From a virus: a DNA stretch of 64,000 bases. The notes beneath the pieces were generated by a model. That model did not search any database, was not told the origin of the DNA, and saw nothing but the letters and a program-made list of their open reading frames with translations. A program made the translations under genes and the position numbers. The stretch is taken from positions 1 through 64,000 of IMG/VR virus record IMGVR_UViG_3300044611_001195. One strand, written 5' to 3'. Shown here piece after piece: positions 6,200-26,048 of this stretch (position 1 is its first letter; each line of letters begins with the position of its first letter).

Positions 6200-6948
6200 T
6201 CGGAAAGAATACTTTCAATAATTTGATTGAAGACTTTTGTTTTATTGGTAAGAGGATCTTCAGACCCTCTCCAATTAGAATGCCAATTAGTAGCAGCACG
6301 ATAATGAAGAAACTTACCATCCAAATGTAACTCAAAATTATATCCCTTGGTTACCTCTTCGTTTTGCAAATCAATTTCATTATAATTGGTTGGATATTGA
6401 ACATCGGTTTCTTTCATCCAAAAATTATTCTTTTTGAAATAATAATAAGTGTTTCCACCAACATCAGTAAGTTCTCCATTTACCACACCATCGGAAAAAT
6501 CAATATCAAGATCTTCCATCTTTGGCATATTAAAGAACATAATACCATTCCACATATAAGTGATAGATCCTCTATATTGTGGCAAACCTGAAATTATGGC
6601 ATCTTCCATATATTCAGTTATGCTAAAATTATCAATTAAGAATAAATCAGAATCACAAAAGAACACGATGTCATTTTGGTGATTGGCTTTAATAATAGTA
6701 TCATAGGTCCATTGAACAGTATCGGCACAAGCTTGTGCAGGATTTAATGATACTGTTCTTTCTGGTTTTTTATAATAAGAAAACCCATTCTCAGAACAAA
6801 TTGATTTAAATTGTTCTGTTATGGTTGATTCAATAGAATCATCAACAATATGAAATTTATAGTCATCCTTTAAAAACTTTTTAAAAAGTTGATTTTGCAA
6901 AGTTACAAAATCAGGACGATTAACAACCGAAGTGAAAATGTGAATCAT
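6196..6948 (-). CDS. putative GT-A type glycosyltransferase
   Basis: A 250-residue protein with no firm family match. The order of elements fits a GT-A fold: N-terminal MIHIFTSVVNRPDFV, a nucleotide-binding half, and VFFCDSDLFL with a DxD-type metal site near residue 100. A C-terminal LHYRAATNWHSNWRG resembles acceptor loops. Longer upstream starts exist, but the ATG at 6948 overlaps the epimerase stop (ATGA) and is preferred. Confidence 0.7.
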   Translation of the reverse strand: MIHIFTSVVNRPDFVTLQNQLFKKFLKDDYKFHIVDDSIESTITEQFKSICSENGFSYYKKPERTVSLNPAQACADTVQWTYDTIIKANHQNDIVFFCDSDLFLIDNFSITEYMEDAIISGLPQYRGSITYMWNGIMFFNMPKMEDLDIDFSDGVVNGELTDVGGNTYYYFKKNNFWMKETDVQYPTNYNEIDLQNEEVTKGYNFELHLDGKFLHYRAATNWHSNWRGSEDPLTNKTKVFNQIIESILSE

Positions 6949-7844
6949 AGTTGTGCGGAAAGCCAATCTTCAAGTTTCATTGTGGGTTCCCAACCAAAAG
7001 TCTTACGGAGTTTTTGATTATTAGCAAGACTTATACGTGCCTCACCTGGACGAGGAGCAATATTTACAGTCTCATGATCAAACATTCTAGCAATCTGGTT
7101 GATAGAATAATTATTTCCAGTTCCAACATTATAAACCTGCCCAAATGCTTCTGGATCTGGATTAGAAATTGCCGCCATAATATTTGCTTTTACAACATCC
7201 CCAACATATGTAAAATCACGGCGTTGATTTCCATCACCAACAATTGTTAAGGGTTCTCCCGCAGAACGTTGACGAAGGAAAATTCCAATTACGGGAGCAT
7301 ACTGTCCACGAAGAGGTTGACGTTCTCCATATACATTGAAATATCGGAAGCAAACAGTTTGAAGTCCATAGAGATTTGTGTACATCTTACACAGTTTTTC
7401 TCCATTAACTTTTGAAACTGAGTAAGGATTTAAACAATCATCAGGTTGAGTTTCCACATTAGGAGTCTGATTCATTCCATATCCAGAAGAAGTAGAAGAA
7501 TACATTACTCGTTTTACACCAGCCTCACGAGCACATTGAAGAACAGTAACTGTTCCAACAGAATTAATACTTACTGCTTCAATAGGATTTTCGATAGCTG
7601 GTTGAATACGTGCTTCTGCTGCAATATGAAACACATAGTCTACCCCATCATAAAGTGGGCGTGTGTTTACATAGTCACGAATATCATACTTATAATTTTG
7701 TGCTTTATCGTTCCAATAGAAATGATCATGAGCATCAGAATACTCATTATCAATCACCACAACTTCATGACCCATTTCAAGAAGGCGGTCTACAAGATTA
7801 GAACCAATAAATCCAGCACCACCAGTAACTAGTGATTTAGTCAT
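6945..7844 (-). CDS. NAD-dependent sugar-nucleotide epimerase/dehydratase
   Basis: A 299-residue extended SDR enzyme. It has the NAD site TGGAGFIGS (residues 7-15), the catalytic Ser/Thr region MYSSTSSGYG and the YSVSK dyad (YxxxK). RPGEARISLANNQKLRKTFGW is the substrate-binding end of UDP-hexose 4-epimerases such as GalE/WbpP. The likely job is interconversion of UDP-Glc(NAc) and UDP-Gal(NAc), but a dehydratase of another sugar nucleotide cannot be excluded. It would supply donors for the neighbouring GT6 and GT25 enzymes. Confidence 0.88.
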   Translation of the reverse strand: MTKSLVTGGAGFIGSNLVDRLLEMGHEVVVIDNEYSDAHDHFYWNDKAQNYKYDIRDYVNTRPLYDGVDYVFHIAAEARIQPAIENPIEAVSINSVGTVTVLQCAREAGVKRVMYSSTSSGYGMNQTPNVETQPDDCLNPYSVSKVNGEKLCKMYTNLYGLQTVCFRYFNVYGERQPLRGQYAPVIGIFLRQRSAGEPLTIVGDGNQRRDFTYVGDVVKANIMAAISNPDPEAFGQVYNVGTGNNYSINQIARMFDHETVNIAPRPGEARISLANNQKLRKTFGWEPTMKLEDWLSAQL

Positions 7845-8485
7845 ACAACTCTCTCAGGTAAAAAATAGTTTTTATTAAAGTTAAAACATTCTTCGGTGGG
7901 ATAACTTGTCAATGGATTGACAGTTCCATGATATCCACTTGTTTGGAAGAAAAATGGATCATCAAAAGTATAAACATTAAACCAACGCTGAATCTCAGCA
8001 AATCCAATGTCTTGATAACCTTCAATTACATATCCAGCATGATATGCAACTCTCTTACACATTCTAACATATTCATCAGTTAGATACAAGATAGAATGTC
8101 CACCTAACATATTATAAGTCCTGTATAAATCATCCTTTACATGATTATACTGAACATAAGGTCCAGAATGCCCATTCATTCTTCCCCAAGAAGAAATTCC
8201 AAGATAAACTGCGTCAGCATCATCAGGAATTTCAATCTCTGGACGGAAGTTCTTAATCATACAATCATCTTCAAACAAAATAAAAGGTGGATCGATTTCA
8301 CACAAACCCTTATAATGAGCAGAAGAACATCCTGCAACAGGACAATCTGGACGAGGAACTCCTTCTATACGGATGATTGTTTTGAATCCACATTCTTTGA
8401 GAATTTTTTGCATATTTTCATTCTTTTCAGTGTGCTGTTCAAGATTCATATAAACAGCAGGAATTTCTCTAAGATCTAAGTTCAT
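7841..8485 (-). CDS. GT25-like glycosyltransferase, divergent
   Basis: A 214-residue protein with AVYMNLEQHTEKNENMQKIL (like INL..R..R), GCSSAHYKGL in place of GCxxSH, and PFILFEDDCMI as the acidic motif. These follow the GT25 order, though the first motif lacks the usual Arg pair. It overlaps the GT6 gene by 17 bases. It is probably a paralogue with a different acceptor from the GT25 at 5402. Confidence 0.7.
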   Translation of the reverse strand: MNLDLREIPAVYMNLEQHTEKNENMQKILKECGFKTIIRIEGVPRPDCPVAGCSSAHYKGLCEIDPPFILFEDDCMIKNFRPEIEIPDDADAVYLGISSWGRMNGHSGPYVQYNHVKDDLYRTYNMLGGHSILYLTDEYVRMCKRVAYHAGYVIEGYQDIGFAEIQRWFNVYTFDDPFFFQTSGYHGTVNPLTSYPTEECFNFNKNYFLPERVV

Positions 8486-9164
8486 TGTGATTCTTCTTCA
8501 ATGCGATAATTTTAGGTTCATAAGGATAATCCGAATTGCCCATTTGTTCTTCGGCAAAACAATATGATGGAGACAGACTCAAAGTTGGTGAATTATCAAT
8601 CAGGTAACGATTCATCTGAGATTCATCGTGCCATAAAGCAATCACACCATTTTCAAGATCCTTGGTTACACGATCAGCAAGAACTTCTGCCATTTCAAGA
8701 AACCTCTTTGTAGATCCACCATTAAATCCACCAGCATAATAGTGCTCACCTTCCTCACCCACAGGCACGTATGCCAGCGATTGTGGGTTTCTATCATACG
8801 ACCTCTGTTCCTTAGGATAGAAGGACTGGTAGGGGTGCTGGGTAGCAACTAGATCGCTTAGAACCTCATCACCAACCTTATTCACCAGACCCATATCTAC
8901 ATCAAAGTAGAAACAATAATCAAACTGAGAGATAAACTCCTTTTCTTTTACAAAGTAGTTGTATCTTTTCAGAGTAGGCATTGGCCAAGGTTCGTGGTCA
9001 ATCTGGCAAACTCTTACATTATCAGACGCTTCTACTTCATGATCGGTAAAAAGTAAGCACTCAATATCATGCCCATTTAGAAAGTTCTCCTCAATATTAT
9101 CAAGAAGTCTTTCAACAAACTGAATATACTTGTTTGTTGCGATAGTTAAAATACAGATTTTCAT
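8469..9164 (-). CDS. glycosyltransferase family 6 (ABO/alpha-Gal type)
   Basis: A 231-residue protein aligning by eye with bacterial GT6 enzymes. It has CFYFDVDMGL (DVD metal motif), EHYYAGGFNGG and the signature ALWHDESQMNRYL followed by SPSYCF. GT6 members transfer alpha-1,3-linked Gal or GalNAc, the reaction that makes A, B and alpha-Gal antigens. Bacterial and phage versions lack the animal membrane anchor, as here. The start at 9164 (MKICILTIATN) overlaps the previous stop by four bases. A GT6 in cyanophage P-SSM2 has been noted before, to my recollection. Confidence 0.9.
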   Translation of the reverse strand: MKICILTIATNKYIQFVERLLDNIEENFLNGHDIECLLFTDHEVEASDNVRVCQIDHEPWPMPTLKRYNYFVKEKEFISQFDYCFYFDVDMGLVNKVGDEVLSDLVATQHPYQSFYPKEQRSYDRNPQSLAYVPVGEEGEHYYAGGFNGGSTKRFLEMAEVLADRVTKDLENGVIALWHDESQMNRYLIDNSPTLSLSPSYCFAEEQMGNSDYPYEPKIIALKKNHNELRS

Positions 9165-10369
9165 TTTTGAACATACCAAACGTGAACTGGACTTAACACA
9201 CCTGTTATTTCTTTATCTTCAAAAAATTCTTCTACTGCTTTTTGCACACCAGGATATGAAGGGTGTTCCCAATCATGACCCATAATATATCCACCAGGTT
9301 TTACTTTTGGTTCCCATGCAGTCAAATCTTCTAAGCAATTTTCATAAGTGTGAATTGCATCAACAAACACAAAATCTAATGATTCATCTTCAAAATTATC
9401 TACTGCATCCAGAGATGTCTTACGAATAATCTCAGATCTATCACCATATGGTTCTAACATTCCGACAATTTGATCATAAAGATTATCAAATCCACCATAG
9501 TCAGAATCTACATTCACACAATCCATATTTGAAATAGTCCACATCTCAGAAGTTAATGGATCAACTCCATAAACTTTTTCCAAGTTTGTTTTTTCCAAAA
9601 GACGTTTGATGTGTTGCCCACCAGCAATTCCGATTTCAGCACCAACTTTTAGTTCTGGGTGCTCATTGAAAAACTTATGGGTAAACTCATAAGTTGCATT
9701 CCAATAGAGTTGCTTACCATTTTTGGACGTATCTACAAGATCCGCCCTTTTAGACTTTTTTACGTAAAGAGCATCCCCCCACTTATACCAAGTTTCTGGC
9801 CAATGAGTTTCAACTCTTTCAAATCCATACTCACCTAAGAACTCATCAATATCTTCAATTAGAGGATTTCCTTCATACATTTCCCCACGATTGACTTCAC
9901 AATAAACATAATCAATGTTTTTTAGAGTTTCAACTGCACCTTTAAAAACTTCAAGTTCATAACCCTGAACATCAACATTCATAAAGTTAGCAGAACGAAG
10001 ATCAAAATTGTCGAGAAGATCAACTTCTACTTCTTCATCACCATCAAATGTAACATCAGGGTGATGTTCTAGATGATCTTTTGGTTTTAGAATTGAACTA
10101 CTTTGTGCTTCATTGCTACTCAAATACATCTTAGCAGTTCCTTTCTCGCTGCCAAGAGCGGTTTGATATCCTTGAATATCCGCATTTACATTTTGAAGTC
10201 TTTTAGCAAGAACATCAAAATTTTTAGACAATGGTTCAAAAACAGTAATGTTTTGAATTCCATTATCAACATATTCTTGAATTTCCTCACCATAGTGAGC
10301 TCCAATATGAACAATACCTTTGATGTTCATATTGTATTTTTTATACAAGTTTGTAAAATTAATCAGCAT
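9161..10369 (-). CDS. double methyltransferase: FkbM plus class I SAM domain
   Basis: A 402-residue fusion. Residues 1-215 form an FkbM-type methyltransferase (IVHIGAHYGEE, TVFEPLSKNF, NVDVQGYELEVFKGA). Residues about 225-402 form a second class I domain of the Methyltransf_24 type (VGAEIGIAGGQH, VYGVDPL, FVFVDAIHTYE, GGYIMGHDW). Both SAM motifs look intact. It probably O-methylates two positions of a sugar. The ATG at 10369 (MLINFTNLYKKY) overlaps the upstream stop by seven bases. Confidence 0.87.
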   Translation of the reverse strand: MLINFTNLYKKYNMNIKGIVHIGAHYGEEIQEYVDNGIQNITVFEPLSKNFDVLAKRLQNVNADIQGYQTALGSEKGTAKMYLSSNEAQSSSILKPKDHLEHHPDVTFDGDEEVEVDLLDNFDLRSANFMNVDVQGYELEVFKGAVETLKNIDYVYCEVNRGEMYEGNPLIEDIDEFLGEYGFERVETHWPETWYKWGDALYVKKSKRADLVDTSKNGKQLYWNATYEFTHKFFNEHPELKVGAEIGIAGGQHIKRLLEKTNLEKVYGVDPLTSEMWTISNMDCVNVDSDYGGFDNLYDQIVGMLEPYGDRSEIIRKTSLDAVDNFEDESLDFVFVDAIHTYENCLEDLTAWEPKVKPGGYIMGHDWEHPSYPGVQKAVEEFFEDKEITGVLSPVHVWYVQK

Positions 10370-11238
10370 ACTATTTTTGCAATTGTGTTTAGGCAACCAT
10401 CCCAGGTTAAATGTTTTTCATACATTTCTTGTCCATAATTAATCATATTTTGATATTCTCCACTTTCCAATAGAGCATCTACTCGTTCAGGAATCGTTTC
10501 AATTTCATCATTGTTAATCAATAGACACATTTTATCCCATTCAATATATTCCGTAAAGGGCAACCAAAACTCATCACTAATGTAAATGGGTACGCATTGC
10601 ATTTGAATTGCTTCATACATTCTAAATGAAGCAGGTCCAAATCCTCTTGGGGAGAGTGCAAATACTGAATTATATAGAATGTCACGAAAGACCTCAGTTC
10701 TATTATGATCAAGATTAACAGCAAACTTATAACCAGGTAAATGTGACAAAACTTGATTCATTTTAACTCTAAGTGGATGAGTATCTCTACCAGCATATCC
10801 AACTTTATATTGCCTTACTTCTTTGGGAATTCCACCATGAGGATCACATAAAAGTGGAATTGGTTCATAAGAAGAATTTTTTCCAAGAGGTGAACTAAAA
10901 TCACCAGAAGAAGCAAAGATTTTACAATTATCAATTGGGACTAATGTTCCACCATCATATTGAACAACTGTAAAAAACTTTTCATTAGGATGCTTTTCAG
11001 TTAGTTGATTGCAAAAATCAATAAGTGGTTGAGTATTTTGTCCATACTCACCACCAGGATTAATGTGCCACGAAGTCCATTGAATAGGAATGTAAATATA
11101 ATCCGATTCTAGTTCCTGCTTTGATTTAAAGAATGAATATGCTCGCTCCTCAATCATGGGACTATATCCTTGATGAGGAGGATATTGAACGGGCATTTCT
11201 GGAAGAAATTCCTGAGGCACATCGGCAATACGAATCAT
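10363..11238 (-). CDS. exostosin-like glycosyltransferase (GT47-like)
   Basis: A 291-residue protein whose second half has the exostosin signature FALSPRGFGPASFRMYEAI followed by CVPIYISDEFWLPF. YAGRDTHPLRVKMNQVL precedes it as in bacterial members. It is a GT-B type enzyme that probably transfers a sugar to a glycan chain in the cytoplasm; no signal peptide or membrane helix is visible. It lies between methyltransferase and GT2 genes in the same operon. Confidence 0.82.
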   Translation of the reverse strand: MIRIADVPQEFLPEMPVQYPPHQGYSPMIEERAYSFFKSKQELESDYIYIPIQWTSWHINPGGEYGQNTQPLIDFCNQLTEKHPNEKFFTVVQYDGGTLVPIDNCKIFASSGDFSSPLGKNSSYEPIPLLCDPHGGIPKEVRQYKVGYAGRDTHPLRVKMNQVLSHLPGYKFAVNLDHNRTEVFRDILYNSVFALSPRGFGPASFRMYEAIQMQCVPIYISDEFWLPFTEYIEWDKMCLLINNDEIETIPERVDALLESGEYQNMINYGQEMYEKHLTWDGCLNTIAKIVC

Positions 11239-11948
11239 AATTCTCTAATTAAATTTTTATGATAGTTTAAGGAGTCTGAATTTTTATTTCCAACAGAATG
11301 CGAATAACTATTACTCCGTAGTCTATGATTATACCATAGATCATCTACAACTTCAATAATATTTCCTTTCTTTAACCAATTGTAAGTAAACACTATTGCG
11401 TCTGCTTCAAAATAAGGATATGTTTGATCATCAATTATGGACTGCATTGACGATACATAGTCATCACGATTTATAAAAAAGTTTCCAGTATTGATCAACC
11501 ATTCAAACTCACCACTACCAGATTTTAATATATCTCTCGCCCTAGATCCGTCAACTTGACCAAAATCATATTTTACAATTTTACCATTAAGACTTTGATC
11601 CAATCCATCGTCAACTAAATGAAGTTGTGATGGAGAATAATACCTACCTCTTTGAGGTTTAATATTTTTTACAACTTCCAAAGAATTTTCAAAAAAATAA
11701 TTATCACTATCAAGAAGATACACCCAATCATTAGATGCTTTTGAAACCGCCAGATACTTATTTTTAAATGCACCTAGATTTGTTTGATTTCTATAAATCT
11801 TAATTTTTGGATGTGTTGATTCTATTTCATTTTCAGAACAATCATCGTGAATGATAATCTCAGATACAAAATCAGAACTCAGTGGCAATTCCAATGCCTG
11901 TTCTAAATATTTTTCACTATTATAGTAAGGTATTGCTACGGTAATCAT
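11235..11948 (-). CDS. glycosyltransferase family 2, copy 1
   Basis: A 237-residue GT2 with TVAIPYYNSEKYLEQAL, IIIHDDCSENE, the conserved NLGAFKNKYLA and VYLLDSDNYF as the DxD site. It closely resembles the next gene upstream over its whole length (INTGNFFINRDDY versus LNTGNFVFNREKY), so the pair arose by tandem duplication. It is soluble and short, with only the catalytic domain. Confidence 0.88.
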   Translation of the reverse strand: MITVAIPYYNSEKYLEQALELPLSSDFVSEIIIHDDCSENEIESTHPKIKIYRNQTNLGAFKNKYLAVSKASNDWVYLLDSDNYFFENSLEVVKNIKPQRGRYYSPSQLHLVDDGLDQSLNGKIVKYDFGQVDGSRARDILKSGSGEFEWLINTGNFFINRDDYVSSMQSIIDDQTYPYFEADAIVFTYNWLKKGNIIEVVDDLWYNHRLRSNSYSHSVGNKNSDSLNYHKNLIREL

Positions 11949-12688
11949 ACTAAGTCAATAATACGTTGATGATAATATTTTGCAGATAGATCAGAATTTC
12001 CACCACAAGCATTCCAATAACTATCATTACGAAGTCTATGGTAATACTCCATTTCTGGTGTCACCTTATAATATCCACCTTTACTCATCCAGTGATAAGA
12101 AAAAGCAATACTACAAGCATAAACTGGTTCCTCTAAATCTTCATAACCAGATCTTAATCTTTCAAGATATTTTTCACGATTGAATACAAAGTTTCCAGTA
12201 TTCAGAAACCAATCAAACCATTTTGTTTTTTTCAAAAGTGCATCTTGCGCTTCATCAATGCCAATTTTCTCATATTTAAAATCATAAAAGACTTCATTAC
12301 GATAACCATCATCTTTATAAAGAAGCAATTTCTGTGGAATATAACAGATGTCTGGATCTGGATCTTTTATGTTTTTGATAATATCTAAGGTTGTTTCTGC
12401 TGGATGATTATCACTATCTAACAGATAAACCCACTCACACGTTGAGTTTTGAACAGAATTATATTTGTTTCGGAATCCACCAAGATTTACTTCATTTCTG
12501 AATACTTTTATTTTATTACTATTCAAAGTACCTACAATTGAATTTAAATTATCCCATTCTTCTTCATAGGATCCATCATCATTAACGACAATTTCTTTTA
12601 CAAAATCATTATTTAATGCAAACTCTACTGCCTCTTTAAAATACTGAGATGTATTATAAAATGGTATTGCTAATGTCATTTCATTCAT
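11945..12688 (-). CDS. glycosyltransferase family 2, copy 2
   Basis: A 247-residue GT2: MTLAIPFYNTSQYFKEAV, IVVNDDGSYEEE, NLGGFRNKYNS and VYLLDSDNHP. It is the tandem paralogue of the GT2 at 11235, and the ATGA overlap links the two. Divergence between the copies suggests they add successive or different residues. No membrane segment is visible. Confidence 0.88.
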   Translation of the reverse strand: MNEMTLAIPFYNTSQYFKEAVEFALNNDFVKEIVVNDDGSYEEEWDNLNSIVGTLNSNKIKVFRNEVNLGGFRNKYNSVQNSTCEWVYLLDSDNHPAETTLDIIKNIKDPDPDICYIPQKLLLYKDDGYRNEVFYDFKYEKIGIDEAQDALLKKTKWFDWFLNTGNFVFNREKYLERLRSGYEDLEEPVYACSIAFSYHWMSKGGYYKVTPEMEYYHRLRNDSYWNACGGNSDLSAKYYHQRIIDLV

Positions 12689-13529
12689 AGTTTTTTAAAT
12701 TTTCCTCTATTGTATCAGTATACATTAAATGTTTGTATTTTTCAATCGTATCAATATATTGAACTGTATTTGTTTCAAAATCATAAGTCATATTTGGAAC
12801 TTTATACTCAAGGCATTCTCCTCTCCCAACTAAAGAGTATAATGGATTCCAGTCCAAACTACTACAACACCAATGAAATGTATCAACAAAAAAACCAATT
12901 TCATTCCTTGATATATGATTTCTTAATCTAAGCAAAGAATCGTGCCAATGCCAAACTTGATTGTCTAAAAATAAATTAAAATGCTTATGAGGACAATAAG
13001 TAATATTATGACATACGTGAGGAACATCCAGTTTAGAACCAAGTGCATCTAAAAATGATATTGATCCACCACTATCAATCATTTTATAACCTGCATCTAA
13101 GTGTGCATATAAAACTCTATTATCATCAACTTTAAATATTTCTGCGAAATACTTTTTAATGTAGCAATCTGGGCGAATCATCATTACAAATCTATAATCA
13201 TCAAGACCAAATTCTTTTAGAGATCTTGTTGTATCATAGACCAAACCAAGTTCATTTTCAAATCTTTTTGGATGTATAGCAACATTTACAACTCTTTCAC
13301 CATACCATTCCAATAATTTTTGATCATATTCATCGTTACAAGTATAAATGTTTAAATAAATTTCACATTTAACTCCTAACTTTTTTTCAATAGATTCAAA
13401 AAAATTATTATGAGAATCGGTTGCCAACTTTTGTCTGTTGATGGATTCTTCTCCACCCTTACCAACGGATCCTTGACCACCCAAACGAAAGGTGTCACCA
13501 TTAATAACAAATAAACATTTATCTTTCAT
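12681..13529 (-). CDS. WavE-like putative glycosyltransferase, copy A
   Basis: A 282-residue protein beginning KCLFVINGDTFRLGGQGSVG. The central FVMMIRPDCYIKKYF holds an R-x-D motif like that of WavE-type lipopolysaccharide proteins. The protein at 16912 has the same plan (FLFVPMGETFRYLFDGDPRG, ILFVRADFFLKPYF, and a shared WNPxF/Y-V-GR near the end), so they are paralogues. Function is inferred from the cluster and the RxD motif; no firm family was recognised. Confidence 0.65.
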   Translation of the reverse strand: MKDKCLFVINGDTFRLGGQGSVGKGGEESINRQKLATDSHNNFFESIEKKLGVKCEIYLNIYTCNDEYDQKLLEWYGERVVNVAIHPKRFENELGLVYDTTRSLKEFGLDDYRFVMMIRPDCYIKKYFAEIFKVDDNRVLYAHLDAGYKMIDSGGSISFLDALGSKLDVPHVCHNITYCPHKHFNLFLDNQVWHWHDSLLRLRNHISRNEIGFFVDTFHWCCSSLDWNPLYSLVGRGECLEYKVPNMTYDFETNTVQYIDTIEKYKHLMYTDTIEENLKNYE

Positions 13530-13547
13530 AATTACCTTTTAATATAC

Positions 13548-13577
13548 ATTATAGTTCAAGAAACGTAATCACTACAA
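13548..13577 (-). promoter_or_regulatory. possible internal promoter
   Basis: Minus-strand TTGTAG (13572-13577), 18-base spacer, TATAAT (13548-13553), overlapping the end of the GDPD-like gene and 20 bases upstream of the WavE-like gene at 12681-13529. The -10 is perfect but the -35 is weak. Confidence 0.4.
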
Positions 13578-14002
13578 ACACCATAACAATTCAATGATTT
13601 AAAATTTTTATATTCTAAGTCATCAATCAATTCTGGCATAACAATAATTGATTTCATTGTATATGGCTTTCCAGGATAAGTCCAGATGTAATTTTTACTA
13701 GTTAATGTAAAATCATCCTCTTGATGCCAAAAATAGTTAAAATCTTCAGAACTATTGGAAAAAATTTCAAGAGATTTTAAATCTTTACAGTGTATCCAAA
13801 GATTGTCCTTTCTTTCCTCCAACCAGGATATAGAAACTAGATATTGAGGGTTGTCGTGTCCAAGATAAAAATCGCCATCTACATTTCTTACATCAATCTC
13901 AACATCAAATCCATTTGATATTGCAATATCAATATACTCTGGATTATTTTCCAACTCGTGATTGGGACCATTGATATTACCGCGATGTGCAATAAGTTTC
14001 AT
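13556..14002 (-). CDS. GDPD-like protein, copy A
   Basis: A 148-residue protein with the start of a glycerophosphodiester phosphodiesterase barrel: LIAHRGN, a Glu-Asn pair (ELENNPEY), VEIDVRNVDGDFYLGHD. These correspond to the catalytic HRG, EN, E-x-D and HD residues. Full GDPDs are about 240 residues, so this is a short form lacking the distal barrel. The ATG at 14002 (MKLIAHRG) overlaps the HAD gene. A paralogue lies at 16162. Likely a hydrolase of a phosphodiester-linked polyol, but that is inference. Confidence 0.75.
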   Translation of the reverse strand: MKLIAHRGNINGPNHELENNPEYIDIAISNGFDVEIDVRNVDGDFYLGHDNPQYLVSISWLEERKDNLWIHCKDLKSLEIFSNSSEDFNYFWHQEDDFTLTSKNYIWTYPGKPYTMKSIIVMPELIDDLEYKNFKSLNCYGVCSDYVS

Positions 14003-15348: not shown

Positions 15349-15382
15349 CTTTTTAAGACCTCACAAAAATTTTTTAAAGATT

Positions 15383-16910: not shown

Positions 16911-16911
16911 T

Positions 16912-17709: not shown

Positions 17710-18371
17710 TGATACATATTTCTCCTATAATTTTCATTTGGGCAAGTATCAACATCGGCAACTTCTTGTTTTGTTAAGAACTTAACTCCACCCAAAAGTT
17801 TTGCTCCAATAAAAATATCGGCAGACTTTTCACACATTAAAGTGGAAGCTGCACAATCTTTCTTAGATGTCGATGCTGAGATTATACCATGATTTTGTAG
17901 AAGAATCAACTTAGGAAAATAACCTTCATCATCCACAAACTTTGACACATGCTTATCAACTAACTTTAAAATTGATTCGCCAGGAGGAGCATAAGGAACA
18001 ACACAGGACTTAATTCCATTCCTCACAATTTGATCTGGAAACCATCTGTGGTCTGCAAAATCATAAATTGCTTCTGAACAAAGAATCTTAGTTGTATGTG
18101 GAGGGTGAGTATGTGCAATAAAATTAATATCAGGAAATGTCTTCATAATCCAAGCATGAAATGAAGTTTCAATACTTGGTTTCTTATGGAGAAGTTCTAT
18201 CTGAGCACCATTTGTATTGCATAATGTCAAGTCTTCTTCTGATAGTGTATGAAGACTTGTTCCACTTGCTTTAATGAGGAATGTATTTTCATCTACTCTT
18301 ACTGATACATTACCTTCACCACAAATAGTGTAGTCACTAATTTCTCTTGCTAGTTCTAGTATTTCAGACAT
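17706..18371 (-). CDS. class II aldolase (AraD/FucA family)
   Basis: A 221-residue protein with the whole family signature: GEGNVSVRV, IKASGTSLH, the zinc ligands HTHPPH and LLQNHG, and length close to FucA. Members cleave or condense 2-hydroxy aldehydes such as L-fuculose phosphate or epimerise pentose phosphates. In this locus it probably makes or trims an unusual sugar phosphate for the glycan. Confidence 0.88.
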   Translation of the reverse strand: MSEILELAREISDYTICGEGNVSVRVDENTFLIKASGTSLHTLSEEDLTLCNTNGAQIELLHKKPSIETSFHAWIMKTFPDINFIAHTHPPHTTKILCSEAIYDFADHRWFPDQIVRNGIKSCVVPYAPPGESILKLVDKHVSKFVDDEGYFPKLILLQNHGIISASTSKKDCAASTLMCEKSADIFIGAKLLGGVKFLTKQEVADVDTCPNENYRRNMYQ

Positions 18372-19446
18372 CTTTAAGGAATAATGCTAGTTTATTTAGA
18401 TTTACCTTCCAAGGAGAGTTTAGACCACCAGAGATAGAAAGAGCACCATCACTTTCCACACTTTCCTCTACTTTCTCCACAAACTCAGTATCATTAAAAT
18501 GATGTAATTCTGTATGAGACATTGAATACTCAAAGCGAGTATTGACATCAAAAAACAAAGGACTATTGATAGAAATAACTTTTGTTTCTGGTGGTGAGAA
18601 GATTACATTACACATACCACCACCAATTGGTCCAGCAACATACTTAGCAGAGTTGAATAAACCAATCTTCTCTTTCATCGTCATATTTTCACAGAAGACT
18701 TCTTCATATCCATGAGACTTGAAAAGTTCTGCTACTTCATCCTCATTCACACAACGACGGCGCTCAGTATAGTTGGTTCCAATATTATCGAAGTTATTAT
18801 GCAACCAAGTGCGCCGTGAGATATAAATCTTCTCTGGACCCTGATATTCACCTTTCATACGGTTGATAATATCAAATACACCAGAATGTGGTGGAGTATT
18901 TGAAAGACCGTTATGGGTCAATGACGACCCCACTACAACAGTATTATAAAGAGTGTCTGGGTTTAGAAATACAACATCTTTTCTTCTAATACCAAGAAGT
19001 TCTAGCGATTCCCAAACAAAAGGATAAAGATCATCTTTACCTTCTGGCGGACTCACAAGAAGTTTAAGATCTGGATGAATCTCTTTCTCATTGAAGTAAG
19101 AGTAGAGATAAGGCAACGTATCGTAGATAAAATGATAGTAGTTCGCCATATTATACACAAAGTAAAATACAGGAACTGAGCAGAAATTCTTAAAATGAAA
19201 AGGAAGTTCTACTTGATACTCCATCGTTTCTTCATAGACAGTTCCTCTACCCAAAGACATAAACATTTCTTTGGTTGGAAGAGTCAGTCTCTGAGTTTGA
19301 TGCGAATAGATTAGTGGTTGAGGATAATGCTTAGAAAGACCAGTAAATTGACAAGTGAAGAAATATGAAACTTCAATGTCCCTACCATTCTCATCTTTTT
19401 CTTTAATAACTCTAGTTTTTCTAGAATTCCAATGTTCAATATTCAT
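18364..19446 (-). CDS. glycosyltransferase family 61
   Basis: A 360-residue protein with the GT61 (DUF563) signatures: NMANYYHFIYDTLPYLY, KIYISRRTW, and KYVAGPIGGGMCNVIFSPP. Family members transfer xylose, GlcNAc or related sugars. The length is typical. No membrane helix is evident. Confidence 0.88.
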   Translation of the reverse strand: MNIEHWNSRKTRVIKEKDENGRDIEVSYFFTCQFTGLSKHYPQPLIYSHQTQRLTLPTKEMFMSLGRGTVYEETMEYQVELPFHFKNFCSVPVFYFVYNMANYYHFIYDTLPYLYSYFNEKEIHPDLKLLVSPPEGKDDLYPFVWESLELLGIRRKDVVFLNPDTLYNTVVVGSSLTHNGLSNTPPHSGVFDIINRMKGEYQGPEKIYISRRTWLHNNFDNIGTNYTERRRCVNEDEVAELFKSHGYEEVFCENMTMKEKIGLFNSAKYVAGPIGGGMCNVIFSPPETKVISINSPLFFDVNTRFEYSMSHTELHHFNDTEFVEKVEESVESDGALSISGGLNSPWKVNLNKLALFLKDV

Positions 19447-19471
19447 ACTCTACTAATATTATTTTTTAAAA

Positions 19472-20113
19472 TTACCAAGGTTCAGAATTAAAATAATTTT
19501 TATTATATGCGACAATATTACACCATCTCCACAGATCTTCCCTATCAGAAATTGGAGTTAATCCACCATGGTCTTCAAAAAACATATAACTAAATCCAGT
19601 GAATCCATATGGTTCTAGGTAAGAAAGCATAATATCTAGATTATCACCAACTTCTTTTTGCCCGGGTCCATATTCAAATTGAATAATTTTTACGTTGTTC
19701 AAATAGTCTCCAAATCCACGAAAAACTTTGGTTTCCATGCATTCAACGTCAATTTTTAAAAAGTCAATCTCCTTAATATTATTAGATCTGCAATATTCAT
19801 CTGCTCTACGTAATTCGCATTTTATTGGATCACCAGTAGAATTTGGTCGTTCAATAAAAGAATATGTACTTACCCAAAAATCAAAAGATGTATTTTCATC
19901 ACTCAAACCAAAAGCATTAAAAAATGATTTTTCATTATTATTCGACAACTGCTTTAGTTGTTCTAGATATTTCGGAAAAGGTTCAAAATAATGAACTTCA
20001 CCTCCCGTTTGGACATATGGAGAATCATTATATGCCCCAACATCAAAAATTACTTCCACCTTATCAGTAATTTTGTTAAAAAAATTAACTTCCGATATTA
20101 GAATAGGATCCAT
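19472..20113 (-). CDS. FkbM-family methyltransferase
   Basis: A 213-residue SAM-dependent methyltransferase. EVIFDVGAYNDS is the SAM loop, VHYFEPFPKYLEQL the acidic motif and IDFLKIDVECMETKVFRG the FkbM signature. It is the second FkbM gene in this cluster and is the first gene behind an internal promoter. It probably O-methylates a glycan sugar. Confidence 0.86.
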   Translation of the reverse strand: MDPILISEVNFFNKITDKVEVIFDVGAYNDSPYVQTGGEVHYFEPFPKYLEQLKQLSNNNEKSFFNAFGLSDENTSFDFWVSTYSFIERPNSTGDPIKCELRRADEYCRSNNIKEIDFLKIDVECMETKVFRGFGDYLNNVKIIQFEYGPGQKEVGDNLDIMLSYLEPYGFTGFSYMFFEDHGGLTPISDREDLWRWCNIVAYNKNYFNSEPW

Positions 20114-20137
20114 ACATTAAAAATATTATATACTACG

Positions 20138-20166
20138 ATTATACCACATAAATTATGCAATAACAA
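20138..20166 (-). promoter_or_regulatory. internal promoter in the glycan cluster
   Basis: Minus-strand TTGTTA (20161-20166), 17-base spacer, TATAAT (20138-20143), overlapping the end of the upstream gene. It may boost the distal two thirds of the cluster. Confidence 0.6.
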
Positions 20167-21028
20167 TCCAATCACCACTCTCCTCCATTTTTTTATAATC
20201 AAAAAATTTGGGTATTTTCATTCTGGCATACTTGTGTAGGTAGAACTTTGGACCCCTCAACTGATTTGAAAAATATAAAAAATAACAAAGTATTCCATAA
20301 AGACTGTCATAAAAATGAACTTCTTTTGCATTTTCAATAATCTTTATCGTATCAATAATTTTAGTTGAATTATTATTTAAATAAACCAAATTATACTCAA
20401 TATTAGAAAGATCCATACCATCAACATGATGAACAACAGAATATTCATTAAATTTAACTAACTCAGAATATTTTCTTTGTTCATCATCCTCATTCCTTAT
20501 AATTTTAAAATAATCAAATGCAATAGAATAATCAAGATTTGAAAGCGTATAGAATCCTATTCTTTGGTCAAATGTTGGATCACTTGCATCTCTTTCATTA
20601 ATTTGTAATTTTTCTTGCAAGTTAAATTTTTTTAATATTTGACAATTTTTATATTGAATATTAGTTTTAGGAATTTCATTTTGAATATTCATTCTCAGGC
20701 AAGCTTGTTCAAAATTCCAACAATTTTGATGCCCATGTTCTCCAGGTTTTCCTTCATTCAAAAATAGATAATCCTCATCAAAAAGTTTTTTAGCCAACTT
20801 ATCAATATCATTACTCGCTGTTCCATCTGGACAAGAAACGAAAATTAAATTAAAGTCTGGATACAATGCTTCCAAAAATTCTTTTTGATGGGGAAGACAT
20901 ATTAAACTTACAGATTTATATTGAGTTTGATAATACCTAACCATACCAACAAGTTGAATAAGATCAGTCCAACCCCAATACAACATTAAAACTGCATTTA
21001 TATCTTTTTTAGATGGTAAAGTAGTCAT
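20153..21028 (-). CDS. GT-B-like protein, copy B
   Basis: A 291-residue paralogue of the protein at 15383. VLMLYWGWTDLIQLVGMVRYY is the N-terminal Rossmann start and VHFYDSLYGILCYFLYF with YLHKYARMK is the C-terminal signature. No firm family was recognised. The ATG at 21028 (MTTLPSKKD) is chosen because it limits overlap with the upstream gene to 20 bases. Confidence 0.6.
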   Translation of the reverse strand: MTTLPSKKDINAVLMLYWGWTDLIQLVGMVRYYQTQYKSVSLICLPHQKEFLEALYPDFNLIFVSCPDGTASNDIDKLAKKLFDEDYLFLNEGKPGEHGHQNCWNFEQACLRMNIQNEIPKTNIQYKNCQILKKFNLQEKLQINERDASDPTFDQRIGFYTLSNLDYSIAFDYFKIIRNEDDEQRKYSELVKFNEYSVVHHVDGMDLSNIEYNLVYLNNNSTKIIDTIKIIENAKEVHFYDSLYGILCYFLYFSNQLRGPKFYLHKYARMKIPKFFDYKKMEESGDWIVIA

Positions 21029-22562
21029 TTTCGTATTCGTAAGAGTGCCAATCAACTTTATTAAAAAATCTTTGCCAGTATTGGTAAGTCTTTAAATCAT
21101 TTGGAGTTCCCCAACAAATATAATTATCAATCTCAAAGTTTTTAACTTTATATCCCAATTCTATTGCTTCATTAAGCATACTATCAACATAGAATTCGCC
21201 ATTAGTTCTATTATCATTATCATATAAAGATTTTAAAGAACGGAAAAAGATTTCCCTTGAACGGAAAAACATAGTTCCAGTAATGGCAAACTCTTTTACA
21301 GGATCAGTTCCAGTAAATTTTTTAACATCGACACGACTTACATTCCCATCCTCATCACATTTAACCCAAGAATATGCCTCTGGTTGCAAATGACTCGTAT
21401 AGTTATTTCTATAAGTCCAAACTATTATATCATTTTCTTCATCATTTACCAAATCTAAAAACTTATCGGCATCATAGAATACACCATTATCACAAGCTGA
21501 AATTAAAATAGAAGAATCTGGATCAATCACATTGACAATTCTTTCTGTTGTGCAAGCCTGACCTTCAAGAACTTCATCAATCCAGACTGTATTTTGACCA
21601 GGTGATTGATGACCTTTCAGACAGGCATAAATGACATCATCAGTTTTTGGTAAGCAGCGAACTGCCTGATCTACCATATCTTTACCATTGACTTGAATGA
21701 ATGGTTTTGGTTCGGTATATCCTTCTTTTGAGAAGCGACTCCCAGCACCTGCCATTGGAAGAGCAAGAATACAGTTTTCAAGTCTAACTTCTTTCTGACC
21801 TTCTAGTGCTTTACGATAATAATTTGACCAACTATTATAAACATCAAGATCAAATGGAGTTCCCCATTGAAGCATATAAGGAACTTCATAAACAAGACTT
21901 ATAAGTTCATCACGAACAAGTAGGTTATAAATCAGGCTTACATAATACTCACCGTTGATGTTAATATCTTCATCCATCAACTGTTTAAAGTATTTCTTTA
22001 CATAACTACCTTTCCTGAAATAGTAGTTTCCAGCAGAAGCAAATTCAGACATTTTATCTTCTGTGAATGGTTGCTTCTCACGAACTTCTAAAATCTTATT
22101 GTCCTCATCAGTGCGGCAGAATGCATAATTATCACTACCCAGCATATGGGGATGAAATCCAGTATAACAAATTACACATCCATCACACTCCGTTGCATCA
22201 ACAAAACCTTTGAAATGACGATAATCCCAATATATTGAGAAATCACAATAATTGACAATTACTTCTTCTTCATCATCAATCAGATTCTCAAACTCAAATA
22301 CAGAAAATACTGGGCCATTTTTATGTCTAGGAATACTAACTATTTCTTTTTTCTCTACAAGTTTATCCAATACCTCAACTATATTAGTTTCTTCTTTATG
22401 CTTATCGTTGATAATAAAAACAAATTTACTATCTTCTGGATAAAGATCGACGATATGTTCTATAACCTTTCTTCCATCAACTTCAATAAGATATTTTGGA
22501 ATGTCATATCCAGCAGCAGCAAATCTACTACTCATACCAGACATTGGAATAATAACTTTCAT
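21009..22562 (-). CDS. tandem fusion of two nucleotidyltransferase domains
   Basis: A 517-residue protein made of two homologous NTP_transferase domains. Domain 1 (about 1-250) starts MSGMSSRFAAAGYDIPKYLI; domain 2 (about 262-510) starts PMAGAGSRFSKEGYTEPKPF. Each ends with the NGEYYVSLIYN / NGEFYVDSMLNE and WGTPxDL segments. Domain 2 keeps the G-x-G-S-R loop; domain 1 has G-M-S-S-R and PKYL, so its specificity or activity may have changed. Both resemble the single-domain enzyme at 14623. Confidence 0.86.
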   Translation of the reverse strand: MKVIIPMSGMSSRFAAAGYDIPKYLIEVDGRKVIEHIVDLYPEDSKFVFIINDKHKEETNIVEVLDKLVEKKEIVSIPRHKNGPVFSVFEFENLIDDEEEVIVNYCDFSIYWDYRHFKGFVDATECDGCVICYTGFHPHMLGSDNYAFCRTDEDNKILEVREKQPFTEDKMSEFASAGNYYFRKGSYVKKYFKQLMDEDININGEYYVSLIYNLLVRDELISLVYEVPYMLQWGTPFDLDVYNSWSNYYRKALEGQKEVRLENCILALPMAGAGSRFSKEGYTEPKPFIQVNGKDMVDQAVRCLPKTDDVIYACLKGHQSPGQNTVWIDEVLEGQACTTERIVNVIDPDSSILISACDNGVFYDADKFLDLVNDEENDIIVWTYRNNYTSHLQPEAYSWVKCDEDGNVSRVDVKKFTGTDPVKEFAITGTMFFRSREIFFRSLKSLYDNDNRTNGEFYVDSMLNEAIELGYKVKNFEIDNYICWGTPNDLKTYQYWQRFFNKVDWHSYEYENDYFTI

Positions 22563-22583
22563 AAGAAAAATATTTTTAAATAT

Positions 22584-23318
22584 TTATTGGTGCCTGGAAG
22601 GATCAATAGTATATGGTGCAGAAAAATATTTAACTTCTAAACCCTTATCATAAGCGTTCTGAGTCACAGATGGCTCAAAGGCAATTGGATATAAACCCTT
22701 CCACAATTCATTCATTTCAATACAATAATTATATGTCTGCATATATGCTTCCATTGAATTTCTGTTTCCATATACTATTGCATCAGAAACCCATGGAGCA
22801 TTTACTGTATCTGGAAGTCTCCAATCTCCAGGAGAATTGTATATGGTTGGATTTTGTCTGTCTATTATGGGTGAATAGTGATTACACCAAGGAATTACCG
22901 AAAAAATTTGATATTCATCAGATTTTTCAATATCTGGTAATTTGTTAGTAACAATATCAGAACGATATTTCATATATGCATCATATTCGAAGTTATTATC
23001 ATCAGCATATTGAGTTGCTAATTTAAAAGCATTCATATCATTGAAAAACATCGATAATTGATTATATGGCAATGGTTCATTAGTTCCCGTTCCCATATTA
23101 ATAAAAATATCTTTATAATGCTGGGGAATAACATAAGGACAAATATATTCACCCTTCAACCATTTTGAGAGATTATTCAATGCTTGATTGTGATAATCAT
23201 CTCTCTCAGCATTAATTGAAATAAACAAATCAACATCATAGTCACACGACTCCAATAAAGGAATCAGACAACTTTCATAACACTTCAATCTTCCAGATAT
23301 TAAAACTGCAACTCTCAT
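22584..23318 (-). CDS. WavE-like putative glycosyltransferase, copy C
   Basis: A 244-residue protein beginning RVAVLISGRLKCYESCLIPL, the SGR start typical of short LPS transferases, with YDAYMKYRSDIVTN as an R-x-D motif. It shares the general plan of 12681 and 16912 but is more distant. The ATG at 23318 overlaps the GT11 stop by four bases. Confidence 0.65.
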   Translation of the reverse strand: MRVAVLISGRLKCYESCLIPLLESCDYDVDLFISINAERDDYHNQALNNLSKWLKGEYICPYVIPQHYKDIFINMGTGTNEPLPYNQLSMFFNDMNAFKLATQYADDNNFEYDAYMKYRSDIVTNKLPDIEKSDEYQIFSVIPWCNHYSPIIDRQNPTIYNSPGDWRLPDTVNAPWVSDAIVYGNRNSMEAYMQTYNYCIEMNELWKGLYPIAFEPSVTQNAYDKGLEVKYFSAPYTIDPSRHQ

Positions 23319-24115
23319 ATGATAATCCATCCTTGTAAATATAAATCGCTGAGATCTTTAGAAGCATCTGGTCCAGCAAACCAAGTACTTGGGGCAACTG
23401 TTTTTTTACTTTTTGCCAACCAAGCACCCCACCAAGAGAATGAAGAATTGGCAATGATGTGATATGTGCAAAGGGATTGGAGACAAAGATCTACGCCAGT
23501 GCTGTTTCCTTCTGCAAAAATAAAACGATCTCCCTGAAAAACTTCTTGCTCCTTACACCACTCAATTCCATCAGAAAAAATCATAACTGGAATGTCTTCT
23601 GGCATATGAGACAATCCCTGAGCATAATACTCTAACGTTTGTACTGGGTGATGTGGATATTGTAGATAATCTCCCCTACGAAGATGAATTGCAATTACTT
23701 CTTCATTACCAAAATTTGATTTAAATGCTTCTTCTGTTGGTTCACGAATTTCATCGGCAAAAGTAAATGCCTCACGAATTTGCTTTTCAATATGCTTGAA
23801 ATATTTTTCTGTTTGGAAATATCCATAAAGACTAATATTATCTGGACAGTTGTTCCAAAGATTTTGATCTAATCCAAAATTTGATTCCATTACCTTTGGA
23901 AAATTAGTCACATGCTTTGGTGCTTCAGGAATCTTAAAGCACTCAAACATTGTAATATCTGAGTTTACACAATTAATATCTCTTGTTGCAACAACTGCTC
24001 TTGGTGGTAAGCAATACTCATATCCGTGTCTTTGGGCAAGACCACGAAGAGCAGTATATTGAAACATCTGGTTACCAAGTCTTCCCAGATTTCCTAGATC
24101 ATCATTTGCAAGCAT
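23315..24115 (-). CDS. alpha-1,2-fucosyltransferase-like, GT11
   Basis: A 266-residue enzyme with GRLGNQMFQYTALRGLAQ near the N-terminus, the donor motif AIHLRRGDYL, PVMIFSDGIEWCK and SSFSWWGAWLA. These are the four GT11 motifs in order, and the length fits bacterial members such as FutC/WbsJ. It would transfer fucose from the GDP-fucose made by the two genes just upstream. The ATG at 24115 overlaps fcl by 14 bases. Confidence 0.92.
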   Translation of the reverse strand: MLANDDLGNLGRLGNQMFQYTALRGLAQRHGYEYCLPPRAVVATRDINCVNSDITMFECFKIPEAPKHVTNFPKVMESNFGLDQNLWNNCPDNISLYGYFQTEKYFKHIEKQIREAFTFADEIREPTEEAFKSNFGNEEVIAIHLRRGDYLQYPHHPVQTLEYYAQGLSHMPEDIPVMIFSDGIEWCKEQEVFQGDRFIFAEGNSTGVDLCLQSLCTYHIIANSSFSWWGAWLAKSKKTVAPSTWFAGPDASKDLSDLYLQGWIII

Positions 24116-25037
24116 TTTCTTTATACCATTGATAAGTTGACCCAATACCTTCACGGAGACCAATCTTTGGTTCCCAACCAAGCGATTTAATCTTATCTAC
24201 ATTCAAGACTTTACGTGGAGTACCATTTGGTTTTGTAGTATCCCAATTAATATCACGATCATACCCAACAACATCAGCAACAGTTTCCGCAAGTTCCTTA
24301 ATCGTCACATCTTCACCTGTACCAACATTGATATGTTCTGCTTCATTATAGACCTGCATACAGGTATAACACGCTTCTGCAAGATCATCAACGTGCAGAA
24401 ACTCTCTCATCGCAGAACCATCACCCCAAAGTTTGACTTCCCAATACTTACTATGGTCAAGAGCAGCATGAAACTTAGCAATCATTGCTGGAAGAACGTG
24501 AGACGTTTCCAGGTCAAAGTTATCGTTAGGACCATAAAGGTTCGTAGGCATCAAGGAGATGGCATTAAACCCATGCTGTTGGCGATATGCCTGACACATC
24601 ATAATACCAGCAATCTTTGCAATCGCATAGGCATCATTGGTTGGTTCCAGAGCACCAGTCATCAACTGATCTTCGGTGATTGGTTGAGTTGCAAACTTGG
24701 GATAGATGCAGGATGAACCAAGAAACAAAAGTTTCTTTACACCCCAACGATATGCAGAATCAATAATATTCGTCTGAATACGGATATTCTCAGTCAAGAA
24801 ATCTGCCTTATATGTATTGTTTGCCATAATACCACCAACCTTGGCAGCGGCAACAAAAACATAATCAGGTTTTTTAAGTCTAAAAAATGTATCAGTCGCT
24901 TCTTGATCTGTAAAATCTACAGTCTGACGAGTTCCCCTAATAATATCACTATAATCTTTACTTTCAAGATTTCTAACAATTGCAGATCCAACCATCCCAT
25001 TGGCACCAGCAACTAATACTCTGGAATCACTGTCCAT
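24102..25037 (-). CDS. fcl: GDP-L-fucose synthase
   Basis: A 311-residue SDR enzyme that epimerises and reduces GDP-4-keto-6-deoxymannose to GDP-L-fucose. It has [15 protein letters not shown] (NADP site), [10 protein letters not shown] (catalytic Ser and Cys region) and YAIAKIAG (YxxxK). The ATG at 25037 ([11 protein letters not shown]) overlaps gmd by 11 bases. Confidence 0.95.
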
Positions 25038-26028
25038 AAATGCACATATCCTCAACTAATTGTTTGAAAGAAATCTTAGGTTCCCAACCTAATTTTTCTT
25101 TTGCCTTAGAGGCATCACCTAATAAAGTCTCTACTTCAGCAGGTCGAAAATATTTAGGATTGACTCTAATGACCGTTCTGCCAGTAAGTTTATCAATACC
25201 AACCTCATCAAGACCCTCACCTTCCCATTCAATCTTCATTCCAAAGTAAGGTGCCGATTCTTCCACAAACTCCTTTACAGAGTACTGAACACCAGTTGCA
25301 ATCACATAATCTTCTGGTTCATCTTGTTGAAGCATCAACCACATTGCTTCTACAAAGTCCTTAGCGTGTCCCCAGTCACGTTTAGCATTTAGATTACCAA
25401 GTTCAAGAACATCTTGAAGTCCGCAAGAAATCTTTGAAAGACCACGAGTAATCTTACGTGTTACAAACGTTTCTCCACGTCTTGGTGATTCGTGATTAAA
25501 CAGAATTCCAGTACAAGCATACATCCCATATGCTTCACGATAGTTTTTGGTTATCCAATATCCATAGAGTTTTGCTACCCCATAAGGAGAACGGGGATAA
25601 AAAGGAGTAGTTTCACTTTGAGGAGTTTCTTGAACCAATCCGTAAAGTTCGCTGGTAGATGCCTGATAGATGCGTACACGGTCTTCCATACCCAAAAGAC
25701 GCACTGCTTCAAGAACCCGAAGAGTTCCCACACCATCCACATCAGCAGTGTATTCAGGCATCTCAAAGGATACTTTGACATGACTTTGAGCACCAAGATT
25801 ATAAATTTCATCAGGTTGGACTTTCTGTATGACTCTTACTATATTAGTAGAGTCTGTTAAGTCTCCGTAATGTAACTTAACATTTTGATACAAATGATCT
25901 ATACGATGCGTATTAATCAAAGATGCACGTCTTACAATACCATGAACTTCATATCCTTTCTCCAAAAGAAGTTCGGCAAGATAAGAACCGTCTTGACCTG
26001 TGATTCCAGTGATTAATGCAACCTTCAT
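25027..26028 (-). CDS. gmd: GDP-mannose 4,6-dehydratase
   Basis: A 333-residue SDR enzyme making GDP-4-keto-6-deoxymannose. The sequence [19 protein letters not shown] is diagnostic, with [20 protein letters not shown] (YxxxK) and [15 protein letters not shown]. It is the first gene behind the promoter at 26049-26077 and therefore opens the glycan cluster. The chosen ATG at 26028 excludes a TTG two codons upstream. Confidence 0.96.
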
Positions 26029-26048
26029 AAACAAGAATACTTTTTACC

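Follow-up and report, generated by a model that had tools for sequence, protein, structure and literature searches.

The window analyzed here (64,000 nucleotides, positions 1 to 64,000 of IMG/VR virus record IMGVR_UViG_3300044611_001195, a 65.1-kb virus sequence) carries an island of sugar genes arranged as a single minus-strand run. The run starts with the GDP-fucose genes gmd and fcl, continues with a gene of glycosyltransferase family 11 (GT11) and many other sugar genes, and ends with a family 6 (GT6) gene, an unknown gene, an epimerase gene, a further unknown gene and a GT25 gene. The original prediction had placed GT11, GT6, gmd, fcl and an epimerase together in one locus, and all five were found at the predicted positions on the minus strand, with family matches well beyond chance level. 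The GDP-fucose genes, GT11 and GT6 would form a blood-group-A-like module, which is the best single explanation of the island and, on balance, probably the right one. It draws on sequence and fold, that is, on the enzyme families, the GDP-fucose route, the donor and catalytic residues of GT6, the fold of GT11, the GT11-GT6 neighborhood and natural fusions of the two enzymes. The features are as follows, with identities given to cyanophage P-SSM2.

25027..26034, minus strand: gmd, GDP-mannose 4,6-dehydratase (first Met codon at 26028; TIGR01472 equivalog; 79% identical to P-SSM2)
24102..25055, minus strand: fcl, GDP-L-fucose synthase (3,5-epimerase/4-reductase; 1e6u, NF047922)
23315..24115, minus strand: GT11, predicted GDP-fucose alpha-1,2-fucosyltransferase (PF01531, motif, fold model)
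9161..23330, minus strand: GT11-to-GT6 stretch, with two cassettes, two GT2 genes, GT47 and methyltransferases (tblastn, Pfam, paralogue pairs)
8469..9164, minus strand: GT6, predicted metal-dependent retaining alpha-1,3-N-acetylgalactosamine (GalNAc), or galactose (Gal), transferase (PF03414, PDB matches, model, motifs)
7841..8485, minus strand: conserved partner gene between GT6 and the epimerase, no function assigned (phrog_24091, E = 1e-80)
6945..7844, minus strand: GalE/WbpP-like epimerase of the short-chain dehydrogenase/reductase type (Pfam Epimerase)
6196..6966, minus strand: hypothetical protein between the epimerase and GT25
5402..6199, minus strand: GT25-type glycosyltransferase (PF01755, E = 4e-10; 71% identical to P-SSM2)

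The open reading frame (ORF) of GT11 spans 23315-24181, with the likely ATG at 24115, and that of GT6 spans 8469-9179, with the ATG at 9164.

By megablast, the island matched nine records, all in the gmd-fcl part only: eight Prochlorococcus/Synechococcus phage records (P-SSM2, P-SSM5, S-SRM01, DSL-LC02 and DSL-LC03, some in multiple copies) and one marine virus. Elsewhere in the window lie genes for PstS, 6-phosphogluconate dehydrogenase-like, peroxiredoxin-like, ribonucleotide reductase and lysozyme proteins and a tail-fibre-like gene, a content that fits expectation for a T4-like cyanophage. The island is a cell-surface glycan island, of the lipopolysaccharide (LPS)/O-antigen type, of a P-SSM2-like cyanophage. 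The corresponding island of P-SSM2 (PSSM2_257-271) likewise has gmd-fcl at one end, GT6, an unknown gene, the epimerase and GT25 at the other, and GT11 in between; the GT25 gene closes the island in both, and the GT6 proteins are 80% identical. In P-SSM2, however, only two genes part GT11 from GT6, where the window adds two cassettes; its GT11 is just 43% identical to that of the window, and it has no counterpart of gene 6196-6966 between the epimerase and GT25. The predicted set of genes is real but not unique, since P-SSM2 has the same set.

The GT6 protein matched PF03414 over residues 5-236 (E = 6e-41) and, in the PDB, Bacteroides ovatus BoGT6a (4ayj) and the human ABO chains (E = 1e-37 to 1e-35). 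Modeled with AlphaFold2 from its own sequence and those of 26 relatives (mean predicted local distance difference test score [pLDDT] 95.4), the protein superimposed on BoGT6a chain 4ayj_B with Z 33.6 and 1.6 Å over 223 residues, as for the GT-A fold of GT6, and on human GTA/GTB with Z about 31 (31.3). The metal motif of the protein is DVD, and its catalytic Glu lies in WHDE. Conservation was followed in the best 80 IMG/VR GT6 loci, of at least 554 matched, which are 69-100% identical to the window GT6 and are referred to here as clade I; being close relatives of the window, they do not count as independent events. All 80 keep the DxD, the equivalents of catalytic Glu303 and of R188, H233, W300 and D302 (human numbering), an Ala-Gly-Gly donor pocket at 266-268 and an Arg among the last four residues (the R352 region), and 76 keep the equivalent of H348.

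According to PMC4692239, the choice between A and B donors is governed by residues 266 and 268, while His348 and a Trp181-Arg352 stack help to bind the H acceptor. Position 268 is Gly in clade I GT6, as in GTA and BoGT6a, both GalNAc enzymes, and Ala in GTB, while position 266 is Ala in clade I and a bulky Met in GTB. With Gly at 268 and no Met at 266, the window GT6 would have a GalNAc-permissive pocket, and its His348 and Arg352 equivalents are present as in the H-acceptor ABO enzymes. BoGT6a, which is 33-37% identical to the window protein, shares the catalytic Glu and likewise has AGG in the aligned pocket; given UDP-GalNAc and 2'-fucosyllactose, it yields products of the A type, and it works without metal because of an NxN motif (PMC3961637). 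The phage GT6 has DVD at that place, and metal dependence is therefore expected. The human GTA/GTB enzymes, about 32% identical, align with it in DxD, WHDE, the donor site and a C-terminal KNH plus Arg; they differ in that the phage enzyme has no membrane stem and carries Ala in place of Asp326. The same Ala is found in 72 of the 80 relatives, and Pro, as in BoGT6a, in 68 of 80 bacterial GT6 proteins (the best 80 of 226 bacterial GT6 loci, the bacterial set used below). Judged by its residues and by comparison with BoGT6a and the ABO enzymes, the phage protein looks like a metal-dependent A-type GT6.

GT11 matched PF01531 (E = 6e-29), and its H-x-R-R-x-D (H145, R147, R148, D150), which we take to be the GT11 family motif, is invariant among 42 aligned rows. 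Since a sequence search of the PDB gave a chance-level match only (E = 0.78), the fold was compared instead. The model (42 rows, pLDDT 95.8) had its best match in NodZ 3siw (Z 15.1, 3.2 Å over 218 residues), with POFUT1 (Z 14.2), Arabidopsis thaliana FUT1 (13.9) and FUT8 (13.3) among further matches. The modeled protein thus has a fucosyltransferase fold, and membership of the family points to an alpha-1,2 linkage.

The donor for such an enzyme would come from the two genes at the head of the island, as the original prediction had it. Gmd reached 569 bits against TIGR01472, above the equivalog cutoff of 415, and Fcl reached 468 bits against NF047922, slightly below the cutoff of 500. Fcl also aligned nearly end to end with Escherichia coli GDP-fucose synthetase 1e6u (343 bits, E = 2e-101), with the SSCIYPK and SHV stretches matched. 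Both proteins of the GDP-L-fucose pathway are hence encoded at full length.

The epimerase is a different matter. The proposed 4-epimerase does belong to the epimerase superfamily (Pfam Epimerase, E = 4e-58); the UDP-Gal(NAc) label attached to it was not borne out by the curated models, for the 25 listed, of 43 matched, all fell short of their cutoffs. The top ones, LegB and GalE, scored about 140 bits, both well under their cutoffs (140.2 bits against 262.3 for the GalE equivalog TIGR01179), and the homologues in P-SSM2, ACG-2014f and AG-345-F15, at 150-176 bits, also stay under the galE cutoff. Among PDB structures the best match was 4zrm, a UDP-glucose 4-epimerase, with WbpP fourth. The key residues of WbpP, a UDP-GlcNAc 4-epimerase, are G102, S103, V104, Y166, N195, A209 and S306 (PMC12820599), and the window protein has A, R, I, Y, N, A or P (the column is unsure) and S. 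It thus retains the Tyr, the Asn and the small gatekeeper Ser, with Ser103 changed to Arg, Gly102 to Ala and Val104 to Ile; UDP-GlcNAc could be the substrate. As a UDP-GalNAc maker the protein is no more than a candidate: the gatekeeper Ser fits, and the remaining WbpP residues do so only partly.

In phages related to this one, GT11 and GT6 are often neighbors. GT6-bearing records total 71, mostly ACG-2014f isolates; in all 11 records read singly from Kyanoviridae (10) and from a marine virus without a family (1), GT11 lies no more than 1.5 kb upstream of GT6. In DSL-LC03 a cluster of gmd, fcl, GT11 and GT6 spans the record start, and the two glycosyltransferase genes are adjacent by coordinates in S-PRM1, S-8S53 and S-8S56. 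In clade I, GT11 was found within 10 kb of GT6 in 70 of 80 loci, upstream in 67, a count that includes five very divergent matches that may not be GT11 (L027, L044, L056, L077 and L087; two of them did not match the window GT11 in BLASTP). Seven of the ten loci without GT11 in this range have one farther off on the same contig, two (L053, L089) are on contigs whose start lies a short way upstream of GT6, and L085 truly lacks GT11 within 10 kb. Of 69 clade I loci, 17 have GT11 directly upstream of GT6, the divergent candidates again kept in the count, versus 5.1 expected under random placement in the packed gene run. In a second clade of cyanophage GT6 (clade II, 45 loci, L093-L137), this order holds in 45/45 versus 8.0 expected. 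The expectation is a rough yardstick, given a simple ORF picker and nonindependent loci, and because the clade II loci were retrieved with the single S-8S55 protein, their uniform gene order and pocket partly reflect common descent and not 45 independent events.

The GT11 phylogeny tells a related story. One group of 23 rows (support 100/99) is exclusively clade II, and another of 43 rows (94/70) is a clade I group that contains the window GT11, with a few clade I rows elsewhere, so that the main GT11 groups track the two GT6 clades. In a second tree (FastTree, no support values printed), from which the five divergent candidates were omitted, GT11s of islands without GT6 were split over three places, of which one was nested in the clade I group and another adjoined two clade I rows; with this spread, GT6 and GT11 clades do not correspond cleanly. 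Within clade I, moreover, GT6 is 69-96% identical to that of the window while the island GT11 is often just 40-55% identical. The pairing of GT11 with GT6 looks old, though not clean.

The same pairing recurs in bacteria. GT11 lies within 6 kb of GT6 in 45 of the 80 bacterial loci; gene order was readable in 34, of which 22 have GT11 directly next to GT6 and 2 more have the two fused. One fusion, in a Planctomycetota metagenome-assembled genome (MAG; L277, 5998-7629), is a single frame of 544 codons with GT6 at residues 2-213 and GT11 at 251-528; the other, in a Hoeflea MAG (L262, 5650-7593), is a single ORF of 647 residues with GT6 at the N terminus and GT11 at the C terminus. A natural GT6-GT11 fusion is good evidence that both reactions belong together. 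The first position of the bacterial metal motif is Asp in 31/80 and Asn in 49/80. As to a host origin of GT6, Prochlorococcus or Synechococcus was named in no record title among these best 80 of 226 loci.

GT6 was also seen outside these groups. It is scattered over unrelated bacteria, including Akkermansia and relatives (L244, L245, L252, L266, L286), Gemmiger, Dependentiae and Chlamydiae. Two huge uncultured phages of 642 kb (L457) and 635 kb (L011) carry a GT6 43-44% identical to that of the window; in the former a GT11-like gene follows GT6 at a distance of about 4 kb downstream, and the latter has none within 8 kb. On a human faecal contig with GT6, the part that was read contained no GT11.

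Clade II, which includes the GT6 proteins of S-8S55, S-CAM9, DSL-LC02, B23, ACG-2014f and others, shares the DxD and catalytic Glu of the window enzyme. In contrast, its donor pocket is Gln-Gly-Cys and not Ala-Gly-Gly, in 45/45 loci and in the aligned named members, and none of the 45 has His348 or the tail Arg (no KNH...R tail). The Gln-Gly-Cys pocket possibly marks a new GT6 specificity; we found no description of this type in the literature. That cyanophages carry a recurrent ABO-like module in two donor types, Ala-Gly-Gly (A-type) and Gln-Gly-Cys, is a tentative extension which we hold to be possible and no stronger than that.

The 14 kb between GT11 and GT6 in the window is apparently due to the two Synechococcus-phage cassettes that intervene. 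In a tblastn comparison of 26 window proteins with 11 phage loci, cassette 1 (genes at 21009, 18364, 17706, 16599 and 16162: nucleotidyltransferase, GT61, aldolase, HAD and GDPD-like) matched Bellamy at 61-82%, and cassette 2 (14623, 13977 and 13556: nucleotidyltransferase, HAD and GDPD-like) matched S-8S55, S-CAM9 and DSL-LC03 at 56-88%. In those other phages the cassettes sit downstream of GT11-GT6. Here they stand side by side, each with its own closest relatives, in a mosaic island; on the simplest reading, a P-SSM2-type island would have taken up both between its GT11 and GT6.

Several paralogues were observed in this stretch. The 517-residue protein at 21009-22562 consists of two nucleotidyltransferase halves with 26% mutual identity; the single-domain gene at 14623-15348 shares about 31% identity with either half. 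Other pairs are 12681-13529 and 16912-17709 (28% identity), 13556-14011 and 16162-16602 (40%, both phrog_34507) and 11235-11948 and 11945-12688 (37%). Among the remaining genes of the island, the partner gene at 7841-8485 is also found in P-SSM2, AG-345-E02 and AG-345-F15 by tblastn, and the protein at 6196-6966, for which Pfam and PHROG searches gave no match, is a possible glycosyltransferase. Outside the island, 46363-48111 encodes a protein of 582 residues that matched an Ig-like domain family (PF13927, E = 1e-7).

In the A-like module that we favor, Gmd and Fcl would convert host GDP-mannose to GDP-L-fucose, and GT11 would move the fucose, most likely in alpha-1,2 linkage, onto a terminal galactose, giving an H-like structure. 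With the help of a divalent metal, GT6 would then attach GalNAc, or less probably Gal, in alpha-1,3 linkage to that galactose. The resulting branched cap would be put on the host polysaccharide during infection, most likely changing or masking receptors for other phages. In this scheme we infer the alpha-1,2 linkage, the galactose acceptor and its sharing by the two enzymes, the GalNAc donor and the host-surface purpose.

A number of observations weigh against it. In the window GT11 and GT6 are separated by 14 kb, and relatives with a GT11 of the window type (72-95% identical) also have it distant from GT6, by 7-12 genes. Of the islands that run complete from gmd/fcl to GT25, those with GT6 have GT11 in 83/83, yet those without GT6 also have it in 17/18, in a count of 101 to which some contigs contribute several loci and in which many were retrieved through GT6 or GT11 itself; clustered by GT25 protein at 95%, the islands comprise 50 with both genes, 0 with GT6 only, 10 with GT11 only and 1 with neither (p = 0.18). 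As GT11 is nearly universal in islands that lack GT6, the co-presence of the two is uninformative; co-occurrence was accordingly rejected as evidence, and only gene order and fusion were kept. In loci anchored on GT25, the presence of GT6 does not make GT11 more frequent (38/51 with GT6, 22/29 without); in gmd-anchored loci GT11 is found in 16/16 versus 25/64, a comparison confounded by contig ends. Nor are the supposed acceptor markers of help: in the bacterial set GT11 is near 11/27 H348-bearing GT6 versus 34/53 others, and near 10/31 of the DxD type versus 35/49 others, and because neither tends to occur with GT11 close by, both His348 and DxD were dropped as markers of a fucosylated acceptor. 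Both bacterial fusions have an NAN-type GT6, not DxD. According to PMC4202792, residue 266 is credited and 268 is without part in A/B donor choice, which puts the argument from Gly268 in dispute; the small Ala at 266 would still admit GalNAc. At least one GT11, HhFT2, forms a different linkage, with Lewis x type products, according to the same paper. Nor do the curated models assign the epimerase to any one sugar nucleotide.

One alternative is that GT11 and GT6 act on the same polysaccharide at different sites, with GT6 working on a nonfucosylated galactose like alpha-3-galactosyltransferase, whose acceptor has no fucose, and with no ABO-like trisaccharide as the outcome. Bovine alpha-3-galactosyltransferase fits the GT6 model nearly as well as the ABO enzymes do (Z 30.4 vs 31.3, a tie), so that the fold alone cannot pick the acceptor; 14 kb and many glycosyltransferase genes lie between GT11 and GT6 here, in an island crowded with other transferases, and GT11 is common without GT6. 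Even so, immediate adjacency of the two recurs in relatives, two bacterial fusions join them, and the AGG pocket and KNH...R tail align with the ABO enzymes, the former also with BoGT6a. We therefore consider separate sites rather unlikely, while taking them more seriously than any other alternative. A B-like structure, in which GT6 would use an H-type acceptor and UDP-Gal made from UDP-Glc by the epimerase, agrees with the epimerase's best PDB match being a UDP-glucose 4-epimerase, with galE ranking first or second among curated models for the window protein and for three homologues, and with the dispute over residue 268 (PMC4202792). Set against this are Gly268 in 80/80 relatives, as in GTA and BoGT6a where GTB has Ala, and Ala rather than the Met of GTB at 266; host UDP-Gal would, in addition, lessen the need for a phage epimerase. 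A-type is thus more likely than B-type, and the B-like version is improbable.

The enzymes could instead decorate a phage component, either a virion protein or the phage DNA. T4-like phages do glycosylate their own DNA with their own transferases. Yet no DNA-glucosyltransferase family was found by Pfam among the 26 island proteins, polysaccharide-type genes abound (GT2, GT25, GT47, GT61, FkbM, nucleotidyltransferases), and the island ends match the glycan island of P-SSM2, which makes this the least probable of the alternatives, and a very unlikely one. The blood-group-A-like module remains our preferred explanation. The ABO-like logic of the original prediction holds up in the nearness of GT6 to ABO and BoGT6a, the A-type pocket, the fold of GT11, the GT11-GT6 neighbors and the two fusions; it finds no backing in co-presence, given the 17 of 18 GT6-less islands with GT11.

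The kind of system was already known, from the P-SSM2 gene set and from cyanophage GT6, which had been mentioned in two cyanophages in print by 2014 (PMC3961637). Cyanophage LPS genes have also been proposed to alter the infected-cell surface against other phages (PMC9602691), and E. coli O86 offers a bacterial GT11-GT6 pair (WbwK and WbnI) that makes an H and then a B structure (PMC4202792); it is likened here by description, not sequence, and differs in being made of host genes and in its B-type donor. Our search, the reach of which excludes most subscription literature, found no paper on a GT11-GT6 pair in cyanophages. The present analysis adds the structural match, the GT11-GT6 gene order together with a control for it, the fused bacterial proteins and a division of the phage GT6 into two types by donor pocket.

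A phage GT6 of about 230 residues in two pocket types, together with the bacterial fusions, should be useful for studying donor, acceptor and metal choice in this family. If the A-like module is real, it would give a concrete, testable product to cyanophage sugar genes that are without known products, and the enzyme pair of the ABO antigens would be a common tool of viruses of photosynthetic bacteria. The infected cell would then show a changed surface to other viruses and to grazers. On the more tentative reading of a recurrent module in two donor types, swapping of such modules between phages would lead to phage-dictated, blood-group-like surface serotypes on picocyanobacteria during infection, as serotype-converting phages bring about in enteric bacteria.

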